Source of the DNA: Spirochaetales bacterium
GTDB lineage: Bacteria > Spirochaetota > Spirochaetia > Sphaerochaetales > Sphaerochaetaceae
Assembly (NCBI GenBank): GCA_017629575.1
Contig: JAGBWX010000042.1
Coordinates: 1 to 44,755 of the forward strand
Length of the DNA stretch: 44,755 nt
Reading direction: 5' to 3'
The notes under the pieces were generated by a model. The model made no database searches and was not told the DNA's origin. It saw nothing but the letters and a program-made list of their open reading frames with translations. Shown here piece by piece: positions 13,728-32,783 of this stretch (position 1 is its first letter; every line of letters starts with the position of its first letter). The translations under genes were made by a program, and so were the position numbers.

Positions 13728-13821
13728 GGGTCACGTTCGGAGATTGACCTAGCTAGTTCGTGATTACCCCGAAAGGGGACAAGGAGGTTGCCGCTGGAAA
13801 CAGGAATCCAGCGGTTTTTTT
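13728..13821 (+). ncRNA. Candidate structured RNA ending in a terminator
   Basis: A 94-base stretch in a 397-base gene-free gap (13571-13967) folds into three elements: GGTCA/TGACC (729-733 with 745-749 after 13000), CCCC-GAAA-GGGG (13767-13778) and CCGCTGGA/TCCAGCGG (13791-13814), followed by seven T residues. GGGTCACG (13728-13735) can alternatively pair with CGTG...ACCC (13759-13769), which would open the first two hairpins, as in riboswitch-type switching. AAGGAGGTTG (13781-13790) lies unpaired just before the terminator. I do not recognise an Rfam family; SRP, 6S, 5S, tmRNA and RNase P motifs are absent. It could be an sRNA or an attenuated leader of the gene at 13968. Confidence 0.5.
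13791..13821 (+). terminator. Rho-independent terminator of the candidate RNA
   Basis: An 8-bp perfect stem (13791-13798 with 13807-13814) with an 8-base loop is followed by TTTTTTT. It lies about 146 bases before the next start codon. The bases between, 13822-13967, are AT-rich with no clear promoter or ribosome site. Confidence 0.9.
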
Positions 13822-13967
13822 ATTTCTTTAAATTTACTGTTTTTCCTTTTTTTCTTATGACACCATTCAAAAATCATACAAAAATTCTTGCATTTATATT
13901 TTTTAGTTAGTTTTTATTTTTTTTCGTTGACCATGAAACCGAAAGAATGTCAAATTGTTTATAAGAT

Positions 13968-15272
13968 ATGAAGAAGTTTTCCATTATATTATTATTAGTT
14001 CTTTTAGCATTCTCTTCATGTTCTACAAACAAGAGTTCTGGGCATGTTGAAGAGACAGTGGTAGTTGCACAGGAAACTGTTGCATCTGTAACTCCAAGGG
14101 AAGAAGTTCCTGCTCCTGCTCCTGCACCTGCAGTGGAAGCTGTTGTTGATGTTGCCGAAGTAGTAGAGGTAATATCCAGCGAGCCGGAAGTTTCTGTAGT
14201 TGTACCTACTGAATCTAAGGTAGAAGTTCTTCCTGAACCAGAGCCAGAAGCAGTGGTTGAAGTGGTTGCAGAGCCTGTTTATGCGGAAGCTCCTAAAGCA
14301 GAACCTGCTCCTGTTGTAGAGGTTGTTTTGGAAGAGGTTGCTCCTGCTGTAGAAGAAGAGCCTGTTATTATAGAAGAGCCTATTGCTGTTGCTCCTGTTG
14401 AAGAGCCAGCTGCAGTAGAGCCTACTGCTGTAGAGCCAGAGACTTTCATCTATGGCGAGTTAGAACTTTTTGGAAAGACTGCTTCAATCAAGATGGGCGA
14501 GACTAAGTCTGAGATTGAGTATCCAGAGGATATTATTCTTGATTCAGATATTGCTGCTTTCATTGAGAAGGTTGGTCCATCATACAAGGATTATATTGCT
14601 GGCGTAACATATAAGATTCTTCCTGATGGAAAGGCAGAGGTTTATTATCCTGCTATCTCTAAGGAATTTGGCTTTGAGATTCTCAAAGTCCTCGAAAAGG
14701 AAATTCTTCAGTACGTAGAAGATCTCTATGCTTCTAAAGCTGACGTTGAACATCCCTTTCGTGAAAACGCTGCAGAAGTTGCAGCACCAATTGTGGAAAT
14801 TGTACCAGCACCAGCAGATGCACCTGCAGATGCAGAGGCGCCTGTACCAGCAGCTCCTGAGACAAAGACAGCAGCTTCAGAGACAGCAACAGTACCAGCA
14901 GCTTCTAAGGATATTCCTGTAGAGCCAGCTCCTGCACCTGTAGCAGAGAAGAAAGAAACAAAGGTTGAAGCACCTGTAGCAGTTGCACCAGTTGTCACAG
15001 TTCCAGTTATCGACAGCGACATGGATGCAGAGATGTTCTCCATGCTTGGAATCTTCATTGTAATCGTTGTTCTTTATACAGTTGCTGTTGCAATCAGAAG
15101 CATTAACAAGATGCCTCTCTCAAAGGGAATCTCCTTTGTAATCGCAGCCCTTTTGACAGCACTTTCAATTGTAGTTTCATCAATTGTAAGTGGATATGCA
15201 AATATCTATCTTGTATATCTGATCCTTCTCTTTACCTTCTTCGTATTCAGGTCAAAGGGTGCAAAGAACTAG
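13968..15272 (+). CDS. Lipoprotein with Pro/Ala/Val/Glu-rich linkers and three C-terminal membrane helices
   Basis: A 434-residue protein I cannot assign to a family. It starts with a lipoprotein signal peptide (MKKFSIILLLVLLAFSSC, modified Cys18, spirochaete-style relaxed lipobox). Residues 25-155 are a Val/Glu/Pro/Ala linker with no charge-neutral globular pattern; residues 155-260 look folded (GELELFGKTASIKMGETKSE); residues 265-345 are a second Pro/Ala-rich linker. Three hydrophobic helices occupy 356-376, 388-408 and 410-427. A lipid anchor at one end and membrane helices at the other suggest a tether across or along the periplasm. It is monocistronic, and its end overlaps the convergent ROK gene by 26 bases. 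The start has no visible ribosome site. Confidence 0.8.
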   Translation: MKKFSIILLLVLLAFSSCSTNKSSGHVEETVVVAQETVASVTPREEVPAPAPAPAVEAVVDVAEVVEVISSEPEVSVVVPTESKVEVLPEPEPEAVVEVVAEPVYAEAPKAEPAPVVEVVLEEVAPAVEEEPVIIEEPIAVAPVEEPAAVEPTAVEPETFIYGELELFGKTASIKMGETKSEIEYPEDIILDSDIAAFIEKVGPSYKDYIAGVTYKILPDGKAEVYYPAISKEFGFEILKVLEKEILQYVEDLYASKADVEHPFRENAAEVAAPIVEIVPAPADAPADAEAPVPAAPETKTAASETATVPAASKDIPVEPAPAPVAEKKETKVEAPVAVAPVVTVPVIDSDMDAEMFSMLGIFIVIVVLYTVAVAIRSINKMPLSKGISFVIAALLTALSIVVSSIVSGYANIYLVYLILLFTFFVFRSKGAKN

Positions 15273-16284
15273 ATTCAAGCTTCAGAAGCGCCTCTAGTAT
15301 ATTAGAGGCGTAGAAGAAGTTATCGAGAGCAAGAATGCTTGCTCCTATGCTAAGGCCTCCTTCCTTGCAGTTTGAGCGGAAGATGATTACATCCTTTCTC
15401 TCAGCTGGAAGATAGGAGGTCAATTTTGTCTGCATATCTGCATAAATCTGATCAGATAGGGCAGAGAGCTCTCCTGTGAGCATAACGCTTCTTGCACCTG
15501 TTGCCTGAACAGCTTGAGAGAGAGCAAATACCATTGCCCTTGAAGGGTCTCTTACAAAATCATCGTTTAGAGCAATCTCCCTCAGTGATCTGAGGCCCGT
15601 TGTCTCTCTTAAGCGCTCACCAGATGCCACGGCCTCAAGACAGCCCTCAGCGCCACAGCTGCACTTGCCGCTTTTGGCAACTCTAATGTGTGCAAAGCTC
15701 TTTATATCGAAAAGCTGGTTCTTTAGATATGCTGCCTCAATAGTCTCGTTCCATGAGACGAAATAAAAACCATCCAATGATGCTGTAACATAGTCGATTT
15801 CTGCTCTTGCTTCTGCAATGGCGGGGCATATTAGAATAGATGGCCATGGAAGATCGATTTCCACATCCTCATGCGATACAACAGCAGCGCCGAATATCTT
15901 GGCATCTTTTCCTAGTCTGTCGCATGTAGCCCTTATGTCTTGCCAAAGATTTTCGCTCCTTGGCATTCGTTCGAACCTCAGGACTCTTCCCAAAGTATCA
16001 GAAATGGATACAGATACAGAGGCCTTTCTAAGCTCGATGGAGAATACCCTTCCTGCATTTCTGTTTATCGATAGCTTTGTTGCAGGTCTGCCTGTTGTCA
16101 TCTCCTTTTCCATTTCAACGATGAGGCCATCCTTGATTAGACTTTCTGTTATATCAGAGATGCTGACCTTGTTGATCAGAAGCTCCCTAGAGAGCTCTGC
16201 TCTTGACATATTTCCTGTTCTGAGAGCGTTTAAGACCTTAATTCTGTTTATCTTTCTTGCATTGTCTGGGCGTGAGAAATCCAT
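15247..16284 (-). CDS. ROK-family transcriptional repressor (NagC/XylR type)
   Basis: A 345-residue regulator. Residues 12-65 form a winged helix-turn-helix (MSRAELSRELLINKVSISDIT). The rest is a ROK fold: the zinc-site motif CSCGAEGCLE near residue 210, preceded by FAHIRV with the conserved His, is intact. The phosphate-binding loop expected at the domain start (DIGGTK) reads IELRKASVS, so it cannot be a sugar kinase and is a pure sensor. ROK repressors respond to sugars or amino-sugar phosphates; the ligand here is unknown. It is divergent from htpG with about 105 bases between, and its 3' end runs 26 bases into the convergent lipoprotein gene. Confidence 0.87.
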   Translation of the reverse strand: MDFSRPDNARKINRIKVLNALRTGNMSRAELSRELLINKVSISDITESLIKDGLIVEMEKEMTTGRPATKLSINRNAGRVFSIELRKASVSVSISDTLGRVLRFERMPRSENLWQDIRATCDRLGKDAKIFGAAVVSHEDVEIDLPWPSILICPAIAEARAEIDYVTASLDGFYFVSWNETIEAAYLKNQLFDIKSFAHIRVAKSGKCSCGAEGCLEAVASGERLRETTGLRSLREIALNDDFVRDPSRAMVFALSQAVQATGARSVMLTGELSALSDQIYADMQTKLTSYLPAERKDVIIFRSNCKEGGLSIGASILALDNFFYASNILEALLKLESSSLHPLT

Positions 16285-16390: not shown

Positions 16391-18268
16391 ATGGCAAATA
16401 AAAAGTTTAAGACAGAAGTTGCAGATCTCTTGCACCTTCTTATTCACTCATTGTATTCAAATAAGGAAATATTCCTCAGAGAGCTTATCTCTAATGCATC
16501 TGATGCGCTTGATAAGCTTAAATATCTTTCACTTACAGAGGATAGCCTCAAGGGCTACTCCTTCGACCCAAGAATCGACATCTCATTCACAGAAGAAGGT
16601 GAGAGACTCCTTGTGATCAAGGACAATGGCATCGGCATGAATGAGGAAGATCTCAACAATAATTTGGGAACAATCGCATCTTCTGGAACTAAGAAGTTCC
16701 TTGCAAATCTCACAGATGACCAGAAGAAGGATAGCAACCTCATTGGTCAGTTCGGTGTTGGCTTCTACTCAGCATTCATGGCAGCAAAGAAGATTACTGT
16801 AATCTCAAGAAAGGCTGGAGAAGATGCAGCCTATAAGTGGGAATCTATGGGCGAAAGCTCCTACTCAATTGAGGCTGCAGAGAGAGAAGAGCAGGGCACA
16901 ACAATCATCCTCCATCTCAATGAGGATAGCTATGAATATGCTAATCGCTGGGAGCTTGAGACTCTTGTAAAGAAGTATTCAGATCATATTGCTTATCCAA
17001 TCTATCTTGAGTATGACCAGGTTCATTACGAAGACGAAAAGGATGAGGAAGGCAATCCAAAGAAGACTAAGGAACATAAGATTGAGAAGATCAACTCTTC
17101 TTCCGCTCTTTGGAGAAGATCAAAGAGCTCAATCAAGGATGAAGAGTACAAGGAGTTCTACAAGAACAGCTACTACGATTCTGAAGATCCTCTTTTCTAC
17201 CTACATACAAAGGCAGAAGGTACAACAGAGTACACAACACTGTTCTACATTCCTGCTAAGGCTCCAATGGACATGAACTACGCTGACTATAAGCCAGGTG
17301 TTAAGCTCTATGTAAAGAGAGTCTATATCACAGATGACGATAAGACACTCCTTCCTCCTTATCTCAGATTCGTAAGAGGCATCATCGATTCAGAGGACCT
17401 TCCTCTCAATGTTTCCAGAGAGATTCTCCAGGAAAACAGAATCATGAGCACTATTAGAAACAGCTCAGTAAAGAAAATTCTTTCTGAGTTCCAGAAGATT
17501 AGCGATGGAAATCCTGACTTATATGAAAAGTTTATCAAAGAGTATAATAGACCATTGAAGGAAGGCCTCTATTCAGACTACATGAATAGAGATGCTCTCT
17601 TGGAGCTCATTAGATTCAAGAGCTCAGATAGAGATGGCTATGTTTCTTTGAAGATGTACAAGGAAAGAATGCCTGAGGACCAGAAGTCTATCTACTACAT
17701 TGCTGGTGGAAGGGAAGATGTTCTCAAGAAGTCTCCTTTGATTGAAGCATATAAGAAGAAGGGCTATGAGGTTCTTATCATGGCTGATGATATTGATGAT
17801 ATCATCATCTCCTCAGTTCCTACTTATTCCGAAATTCCACTTAAGGCTATCAACAAGTCTGGAGCAATTGAAGAAATCAAGAGTGCTGATGACAAGGTTA
17901 AGGAAGAGGCTAAACAGGGCGTAAAGGACAAGATTAAGGCTGCTCTTGGTGACAGAGTAAAGGATGTAATCATCTCTTCTCGCCTTTCAGATAGCCCAAG
18001 CGCTGTCGTTGTTGACGAGAATGACCCAACAGTCCAGACTCAGAGACTCTTGAAGGCCATGGGGGCTGGTGACATGCCAGAAGTTAAGCCAATTCTCGAG
18101 ATCAATCCAGATTCTCCAATCATTCTAAAGATTGAGTCTCTCAAGGATGATGACAAGGTCAGAATCTATTCAGAGGTTCTCCTTGACCAGGCACTTCTCC
18201 AGGAAGGCTTGATGCCACAGGATCCTGCTCAGTTCGCAAAGAACCTTTCAAAGCTTCTTTCTGAATAA
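16391..18268 (+). CDS. htpG: HtpG chaperone (bacterial Hsp90)
   Basis: A 625-residue cytoplasmic ATP-dependent chaperone of normal length. The GHKL ATP-binding motifs are visible: ELISNASDALDKL near 28-40, KDNGIGMNEEDL near 77-88, GQFGVGFYSAFM near 117-128 and GTTIILHL near 172. The middle domain carries the catalytic Arg loop LPLNVSREILQEN near 345. GGGAGA at 16377-16382 precedes the ATG. I found no CIRCE element (TTAGCACTC dyad) upstream; TTGTCT and TATTAT are present but badly spaced, so the promoter type stays open. It is a single-gene unit. Confidence 0.97.
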   Translation: MANKKFKTEVADLLHLLIHSLYSNKEIFLRELISNASDALDKLKYLSLTEDSLKGYSFDPRIDISFTEEGERLLVIKDNGIGMNEEDLNNNLGTIASSGTKKFLANLTDDQKKDSNLIGQFGVGFYSAFMAAKKITVISRKAGEDAAYKWESMGESSYSIEAAEREEQGTTIILHLNEDSYEYANRWELETLVKKYSDHIAYPIYLEYDQVHYEDEKDEEGNPKKTKEHKIEKINSSSALWRRSKSSIKDEEYKEFYKNSYYDSEDPLFYLHTKAEGTTEYTTLFYIPAKAPMDMNYADYKPGVKLYVKRVYITDDDKTLLPPYLRFVRGIIDSEDLPLNVSREILQENRIMSTIRNSSVKKILSEFQKISDGNPDLYEKFIKEYNRPLKEGLYSDYMNRDALLELIRFKSSDRDGYVSLKMYKERMPEDQKSIYYIAGGREDVLKKSPLIEAYKKKGYEVLIMADDIDDIIISSVPTYSEIPLKAINKSGAIEEIKSADDKVKEEAKQGVKDKIKAALGDRVKDVIISSRLSDSPSAVVVDENDPTVQTQRLLKAMGAGDMPEVKPILEINPDSPIILKIESLKDDDKVRIYSEVLLDQALLQEGLMPQDPAQFAKNLSKLLSE

Positions 18269-31241: not shown

Positions 31242-32783
31242 ATGGATATCGGATTGATTATTTCTTCTATTCTTAGTCCTAATGTATTGTTATTTACAGT
31301 AGCTGGTATCCTTCTTGGTATGTTCATCGGAGCTATGCCTGGTCTCTCAGCTACAATGGGTGTTGCAATCCTTCTGCCTCTGACCTTCTGGGTAGAGCCT
31401 TCTGCAGGACTTGGTATGCTCCTTGGTATCTACAACTCAGCTATTTATGCTGGTGGTGTATCTGCTATCCTCTTGGGCGTTCCAGGCACTCCTGCATCAA
31501 TCGCTTCAACCTTTGATGGACCAATCATCTCTAAGGGTGGTCATCCAACTCTTGCTCTTTGGATTAATACAGTATTCTCTGTAATCGGCGGCTTGATTGG
31601 TATTCTTTGTCTTATCATTGCATCATTCCCAATTGCTAGATTCGCTTTAAGATTTGGACCTCCAGAGTATACAACAGTAGCTCTCTTCGGTCTTTCAATG
31701 ATGGTTGCTGTTTCCGGTAAGTCAGTAGCAAAGGGTATTTTCGTAGGATTCCTTGGCCTTGCTCTTTCAACTGTTGGAATGGACCCAATGAACGGTGTTA
31801 AGAGATTTACTTTCGGTAAATTTATCCTTATCGATGGATTCTCATTCGTTCCAATCATGATTGGTCTCTTCGGCGTTGGTGAGGCTCTGAAGCAGCTTTC
31901 TGAGACTCCTGCTGTAAAGGTTCGTTTTGTAAAGAAGCTTGAGAAGGAACAGAAGACAACAGTTTCTGACTTCATTCAGGAAGAGAAGGGGGCTCAGAAG
32001 AGAATGACTCTCAGAGAAGTCTGGGCTACAAAGTGGTCTATTCTCGTTACATCCATCATTTCTGTTTTCGTAGGTGCTATTCCTGGTACAGGTGGAGACA
32101 TTGCAGCTATCGTATCATGGACACAGTGTAAGAACTTCTCCAAGGATAAGGAAAACTATGGAAAGGGAAGTAGGGAAGCTCTTGCTGTAACATGTGCTGC
32201 TAACAATGCAAGTATCGGTGGTGCGATGACAACAATGCTTACACTTGGTATCCCTGGCGACTCTGTAACAGCAATCCTTATCGGTGCACTGATGATGTAC
32301 AACTATACACCAGGTCCTCTGTTGTTCTCAGAGCATAAGGATATGGTAATCATCCTCTTTGGACTCCTTGTTGTATGTAATATCTTAATCCTCCTCTTAG
32401 GAAACCTCGGCTCAAAGATTTTCTCAAAGTTCACAAAGCTTCCAAGAGCATGGATCAGCACAACAATCATCATGTTCTCACTCGTTGGTTCTTATGCAAT
32501 CCAGAACAGCGTATTTGATGTATTTGTTTGCTTAGTAGCAGGTATCTTTGGATTCTTCCTTTCAAAGGGTGGATTCCCAACAGGACCAATCGTTCTTGCA
32601 TTGATTCTTGGTGAAATGGTTGAGTCAAATTTCGTAAGAAGTATGATGCTTCCTCCTGGAACCTATTCTACATTCTTCGTAAGACCAATCTCACTCGTAC
32701 TGATTATTCTTACTGCGGTTTCTCTTATTGGACCTGCTGTAATTAAGCTTGTTAAGAAATCAAAAGAAAGAAAGGAGGCTTGA
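31242..32783 (+). CDS. tctA: Tripartite tricarboxylate transporter large membrane subunit TctA
   Basis: A 513-residue inner-membrane protein of normal length with about 12 helices. The conserved TctA sequences GAMPGLSATMGVAILLP (about 30-46) and GAIPGTGGDIAAIVSW (about 275-290) are present, as is the ANNASIGGAMTTMLTLGIPGD region (quoted in part as TMLTLGIPGD). It is the secondary transporter that receives the substrate from TctC. AAGGAGG precedes the ATG. Confidence 0.95.
   Translation: MDIGLIISSILSPNVLLFTVAGILLGMFIGAMPGLSATMGVAILLPLTFWVEPSAGLGMLLGIYNSAIYAGGVSAILLGVPGTPASIASTFDGPIISKGGHPTLALWINTVFSVIGGLIGILCLIIASFPIARFALRFGPPEYTTVALFGLSMMVAVSGKSVAKGIFVGFLGLALSTVGMDPMNGVKRFTFGKFILIDGFSFVPIMIGLFGVGEALKQLSETPAVKVRFVKKLEKEQKTTVSDFIQEEKGAQKRMTLREVWATKWSILVTSIISVFVGAIPGTGGDIAAIVSWTQCKNFSKDKENYGKGSREALAVTCAANNASIGGAMTTMLTLGIPGDSVTAILIGALMMYNYTPGPLLFSEHKDMVIILFGLLVVCNILILLLGNLGSKIFSKFTKLPRAWISTTIIMFSLVGSYAIQNSVFDVFVCLVAGIFGFFLSKGGFPTGPIVLALILGEMVESNFVRSMMLPPGTYSTFFVRPISLVLIILTAVSLIGPAVIKLVKKSKERKEA

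Follow-up and report, generated by a model that had tools for sequence, protein, structure and literature searches.

Organization of the locus

The window, that is, the whole 44,755-nucleotide stretch of contig JAGBWX010000042.1 that was analysed (a Spirochaetales bacterium, assembly GCA_017629575.1), contains at positions 13968-15272 (+) an open reading frame that starts with ATG and encodes a protein of 434 amino acids. Its first 17 residues (13968..14018, +) form a predicted type II signal peptide, a hydrophobic region ending in FSS ahead of Cys18 (14019..14021, +). The latter is the predicted lipidation site of a lipobox; it is followed by Ser at position +2 and corresponds to an invariant column in an alignment of 30 rows. 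Residues 19-157 (14022..14438, +) were defined by composition as a Val/Glu/Pro/Ala linker, 78% of which is P/A/V/E and which carries 32 acidic residues against 4 basic ones. A second linker, together with the approach to the membrane, occupies residues 263-357 (14754..15038, +), with a P/A/V/E content of 73% over residues 263-345. The lipobox Cys18 and both linkers had been called in the original prediction, and all were borne out. Between the linkers, residues of about 158-262 (14439..14753, +) make up a region, here referred to as the module, which was recognized by phmmer searching with the window copy and by profile A3. The match of this profile inside the window protein covers 14469-14726 (residues 168-253), the window copy being itself among the 45 rows from which the profile was made. 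Membrane helices were placed at residues 358-376, 388-406 and 409-427 (15039..15248, +) by hydropathy, alignments A1 and A2, and charges. Arg377, which follows helix 1, and Arg428, which follows helix 3, are invariant in the 30-row alignment, as are Met1 and Cys18.

The 3' end of the frame overlaps by 26 bases with a convergent ROK-family gene (15247..16284, -; Pfam PF00480), beyond which lies htpG, encoding Hsp90 (16391..18268, +; PF00183). A terminator-like hairpin upstream of the gene (13790..13825, +) was found by consensus scan only and is no evidence by itself, as the scan returned 1 such hairpin against 1.4 expected in shuffled sequences. Searches of Pfam and NCBIfam with the window protein assigned it to no family, the sole Pfam match being unrelated (E 0.58), and neither Rfam families nor tRNAs were found within the window. 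Further along the window, positions 31242-32783 hold a gene for TctA, which belongs to the tripartite tricarboxylate transporter family.

Conservation of the protein in the genus

A protein search of 60 genomes returned matches in 36, comprising all 36 members of the window's genus in that sample (its own genome included) and none of the 24 others, a few of these 36 genomes having matched through the module as well as, or better than, through the helices. With profile A2, which covers the last 95 residues and was made from 30 sequences, the helical part was detected in each of the 48 sampled genomes from the genus, which comprises Candidatus Ornithospirochaeta and its relatives; the protein is thus not peculiar to a single genome. 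The gene is single in 47 of these genomes and present twice in G002 (G002:C71 and G002:C31, read as L145 and L020), and the resulting 49 copies represent 48 distinct C-termini and sequences. It is also present in the named records Candidatus Ornithospirochaeta stercoravium and Ca. O. stercorigallinarum (L089, L091). In a sample of 297 genomes of the class, profile A2 matched 17/17 genomes of the genus and 1/280 of the others; that one match, in a sister genus (G231), is doubtful, with an E value of 4.6e-4 and three internal stops.

The lipobox cysteine is found in 48/48 distinct sequences, preceded by a signal peptide of comparable layout in each, and the residue ahead of it is Ser in 37 and Ala in 11; Asp does not occur at position +2 in any of them. 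From 29 relatives that were read, 20 loci with long flanks could be compared, and the order of family gene, convergent ROK gene and htpG was the same in 20/20, with one (L062) having an extra open reading frame between the ROK gene and htpG. By Nei-Gojobori counts, the helices of six pairs had dN/dS values of about 0.02-0.15, compared with about 0.25-0.52 for the remainder of the protein in the five pairs with finite dS; the helices are under purifying selection. The possibility of a chance open reading frame, or of an odd low-complexity frame, was ruled out by the conservation, the gene order and the dN/dS values. A simple layout rule, requiring a lipobox and a first helix that begins more than 100 residues later and inside the last 130 residues, described 47/48 family proteins and 0/280 neighbouring non-family open reading frames, 15 of which do have a lipobox.

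When the helices were compared with Pfam, no family matched more than 8 of 30 members, and among the matches listed (25 of 55) the best E value was 0.0025 and the families concerned were unrelated to each other. For the four members searched against NCBIfam nothing came close to a curated cut-off, and a literature search that covered mostly papers outside subscription did not find a description of the family.

Helix number and topology

Of the 48 proteins, a simple helix scan gave 22 with three helices, 25 with two and 1 with four, the difference between three and two arising because helices 2 and 3 are closely spaced. The claim of three C-terminal helices in the original prediction agrees with the hydropathy peaks of the window protein, whereas the scan separates three in just 22/48 sequences. 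On the basis of hydropathy, charge and one low-confidence model, the number is likely three. The net charge of the loop after helix 1 averages about +2.7 (47 measured) and that of the C-terminus about +2.5, the latter being 0 in the five sequences with the helical variant described below. Together with an exported N-terminus, the loop and C-terminal charges fit an N-out, C-in arrangement of three helices, suggesting an extracytoplasmic span and a cytoplasmic C-terminus.

A variable span between constant ends

What is conserved is a design of lipid, span and helices, and the span itself varies. It consists of a linker alone in 42 of the 48 sequences, of a helical domain in five, and of a linker plus the module in one, the window protein. 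The spacing from the cysteine to the first helix has a median of 158.5 and a minimum of 123 residues over all 48, lying at 123-188 in 42, at 229 in five and at 338 in the window protein, which has the longest frame among the 49 copies in the genus. The linkers contain no cysteine in any of the 48 sequences.

The helical variant occurs in genomes G022, G005, G030, G013 and G320 (read as L093, L090, L092, L118 and L098), an example being L092:1849-2826, in which the linker is replaced by a helical middle part some 185 residues long. In one structural model this part consisted entirely of helices between about residues 27 and 211, with a pLDDT of about 78-95 over most of its length, leaving about 7 residues after the cysteine and about 30 ahead of the membrane helices; the model as a whole had a mean pLDDT of 68.9 and a pTM of 0.53, and its membrane helices were of low confidence. 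For this domain, Pfam gave nothing convincing and the PDB no match at E 0.001 or less, and in the class sample of 297 genomes it was not found outside the genus.

Two short patterns recur in the linkers, as for example in L004:970-1770 and L012:1483-2247. Pattern A (DRTxxLxEAL) lies exactly 12 residues past the cysteine in 19/48 sequences and pattern B (RELVEEIS-like) in mid-linker in 8/48. The remaining 21/48, the window protein included, have neither by these patterns, although several of them, including the five helical variants with their DRTEKNIxEL, look related by eye. Shuffled linkers matched the patterns at rates of about 0.0001 and 0.0003, which show only rarity by composition, as both patterns were composed after the sequences had been read. 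The conservation of short motifs within low-complexity linkers suggests a binding partner.

The module

The search by phmmer with the window's copy of the module returned a 179-residue protein in L032 (E 3e-10) and many others. In all, 76 occurrences were counted in 31 open frames, a figure that covers the fetched stretches, which were selected because they matched. The module is about 90 residues long, as many as ten copies being detected in one protein, and examples of proteins bearing it are L037:362-5647, L035, L036, L038, L047 and L031:2014-5577. Its contexts are single-copy lipoproteins, tandem arrays, arrays ahead of a nucleotidase-like part, and proteins ending in a barrel-like part, the last two labels coming from reading of the sequences and not from a search. 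The module profile was found in 18/297 genomes of the class, namely 9/17 of the genus, one of them (G017) by a weak match, and a further 9 belonging to three different genera of the same family. Judged from these sequences, the module is a recurrent element of other, predicted envelope proteins in Sphaerochaetaceae genera. A profile search over the loci then gathered detected it in no further member of the protein family to which the window protein belongs. The small folded domain of the original prediction thus stands in that the region of about 158-262 is related to a domain of other proteins in the genus, and falls in that this region lies outside the conserved design of the family.

Alignment of the module suggests a duplicated beta-beta-alpha pattern. 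No Pfam family was found for the 45 copies searched, a single-sequence model of the fold reached a pLDDT of 57, and no PDB entry matched at E 0.001 or less. A match of profile A3 to adhesin 6vs7 (E 1.8e-5) was set aside, since it consisted of two short stretches with E values of 0.18 and 7.3 and is probably a look-alike hairpin. The module is probably a binding domain. Both the protein family and this envelope module are hereby defined, and no existing name was found for either.

Comparison with known systems

In the original prediction the layout was held to match no named family, which proved incorrect. The available text of PMC6139136 describes 58 unimolecular spanins (u-spanins) of phages that have an N-terminal lipobox, a C-terminal TMD and no periplasmic cysteine, and that are considered to link the inner membrane with the outer. 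The present family resembles u-spanins such as T1 gp11 in the N-terminal lipobox (48/48), in the C-terminal membrane anchor after a long exported part (47/48 by the simple rule) and in a periplasmic part free of cysteine (none in 48 linkers). It differs from them in having two to four helices by scan instead of one TMD, in a linker that is disordered and acidic in most members, and in being a core gene beside the ROK gene and htpG (20/20 loci) in 48/48 genomes, apparently outside a phage lysis cassette. There was also no convincing sequence match to a spanin, the best in PHROGs being that of phrog_456 (Rz-like spanin), with a best E value of 0.025 and 5/30 members matching. The family is therefore not classed as a spanin; by analogy, it may bridge in a spanin-like manner without lysis.

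The span of TonB between the membranes is rich in proline and glutamate, as in the present family, but its helix is N-terminal and its folded domain C-terminal. Here the layout runs the other way, with a lipid and several helices, and the window protein gave no match to the Pfam TonB C-terminal domain. CyoA likewise combines a lipobox with membrane helices, but the distance between its lipid and helix is short and it contains a named domain, whereas the present family keeps a spacing of 123 residues or more, in which no named domain was found. Pal and OmpA are tethers between the outer membrane and peptidoglycan. As far as the available texts describe them, so are Lpp (PMC12274547), OmpM and SlpA (PMC10628300, PMC9388160). 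With all of these the family would share the proposed role of keeping the outer membrane attached to the cell; they grip peptidoglycan, however, and Pfam shows no peptidoglycan-binding domain in the window protein.

Envelope gene content of the genus

Envelope profiles were searched in 24 genomes of the genus and in 16 from other families of the class. The PBP transpeptidase domain (PF00905) was found in 0/24 genus genomes as against 16/16 of the others, the OmpA domain in 0/24 as against 12/16 (and in 0/79 genomes family-wide), and flagellin in 0/24 as against 11/16. Omp85, in contrast, was present in 22/24 genus genomes, one of these under the curated cut-off, compared with 16/16; the two without a match were the window's own genome, which is 85% complete, and G015. 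YkuD (L,D-transpeptidase) was found in 0/23 genus genomes and in 2/79 across the family, and LolA in 1/23, weakly, and in 5/79 across the family, although a profile miss is no proof of absence, for LolA above all. The available text of PMC7738495 reports for Sphaerochaeta and Bullifex that homologues of PBP 1a, 2 and C are absent and murA-G present, and that muropeptides were detected in Bullifex. From these findings, the genus may also have peptidoglycan, without the usual cross-linkers.

A candidate envelope tether and its alternatives

For the question of how diderm Sphaerochaetaceae without the usual peptidoglycan cross-linkers and anchors keep their outer membrane attached, the genus offers a candidate present in 48/48 genomes. 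It is put forward tentatively, at somewhat less than an even chance, that the family is a genus-core envelope tether which joins the outer and inner membranes directly, the lipid residing in the outer one. The C-terminal helices would remain in the inner membrane, their C-terminal end being cytoplasmic, and the acidic, proline-rich, cysteine-free linker would span the periplasm as an entropic spring, so that the two membranes would be held together. The shortest spacing of 123 residues, at about 0.36 nm each, corresponds to an estimated contour of about 44 nm, enough for crossing the periplasm. In the window's species, the linker would additionally bear one copy of the recurrent envelope module. 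Layout, conservation, gene order and selection are demonstrated, whereas lipidation, topology, the membrane that holds the lipid, the tethering and the role of the module are inferred. The need for such a protein would arise because the genus has an outer membrane, yet neither the peptidoglycan cross-linking enzymes nor the OmpA-type anchors that were tested for were found in it, and a direct tether is plausible because Omp85 is mostly present while those anchors and enzymes were not found. Missing anchors alone do not require a tether protein, however, as other genera of the family are also without OmpA domains (0/79 genomes family-wide) yet show no convincing member in the class sample. The anchoring plan would be that of the phage u-spanins in a permanent, non-lytic host protein; if true, this plan is also used by cells, and the clear prediction is that a single polypeptide joins both membranes. 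The stronger proposal, that this one host protein bypasses peptidoglycan and replaces tethers of the Lpp/Pal/OmpA type in the genus as a permanent counterpart of the u-spanins, is considered rather unlikely.

The alternative that both ends reside in the inner membrane was given the same weight as the tether, likewise at somewhat less than an even chance. The protein would then be a lipid-pinned periplasmic loop on a helical base, serving as a sensor, scaffold or docking arm, whose linker motifs bind a partner and in which the module or the helical domain replaces or adds a binding surface. A lipid and helices do occur together in one membrane, for example in CyoA. Such a loop would accommodate the swapping of the middle part while lipobox and helices are kept, and also the short motifs (patterns A and B in 19/48 and 8/48, both composed post hoc). 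It also fits the helical variant, which spans little; with little flexible length, the compact domain in these five genomes would make a poor spring and argues against a tether. The lipid, however, looks redundant beside the helices in a loop of this kind, yet the cysteine is found in 48/48 sequences, and a linker of 123-188 residues is retained in 42/48. That a lipid useless beside several helices would hardly stay so constant speaks for the tether. As to the anchoring at both ends and the tether of the original prediction, the double anchor is conserved genus-wide and a direct tether is plausible, but the five compact helical variants do not fit the extended form that had been envisaged.

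Descent from a phage was also considered, in which a u-spanin, as a lysis protein, was recruited to the chromosome and retuned. The anchoring plan is identical and the linkers are free of cysteine, as are 58/58 u-spanins in the available text of PMC6139136, and the weak matches to phrog_456 were accompanied by similarly weak ones to two further PHROG spanin families, with 2 members each. These matches are near chance, however, and probably reflect composition; moreover, the family has more than one helix and a linker that is disordered and not beta-rich, none of the ten Pfam-named proteins of the window, which include htpG, ROK and an ABC ATPase, is of phage type, and a search of a plasmid collection gave no match. 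Such an origin is accordingly regarded as very improbable. A slightly smaller chance still is given to the idea that the module of the window protein is an assembly artefact, in which pieces of a module lipoprotein and of a family protein were misjoined. A span with the module occurs in just 1/48 genus genomes, and the window genome is fragmentary (131 contigs), but the frame is open from end to end, and the linkers on either side of the module are alike in composition and in GC3 (0.20 and 0.17).
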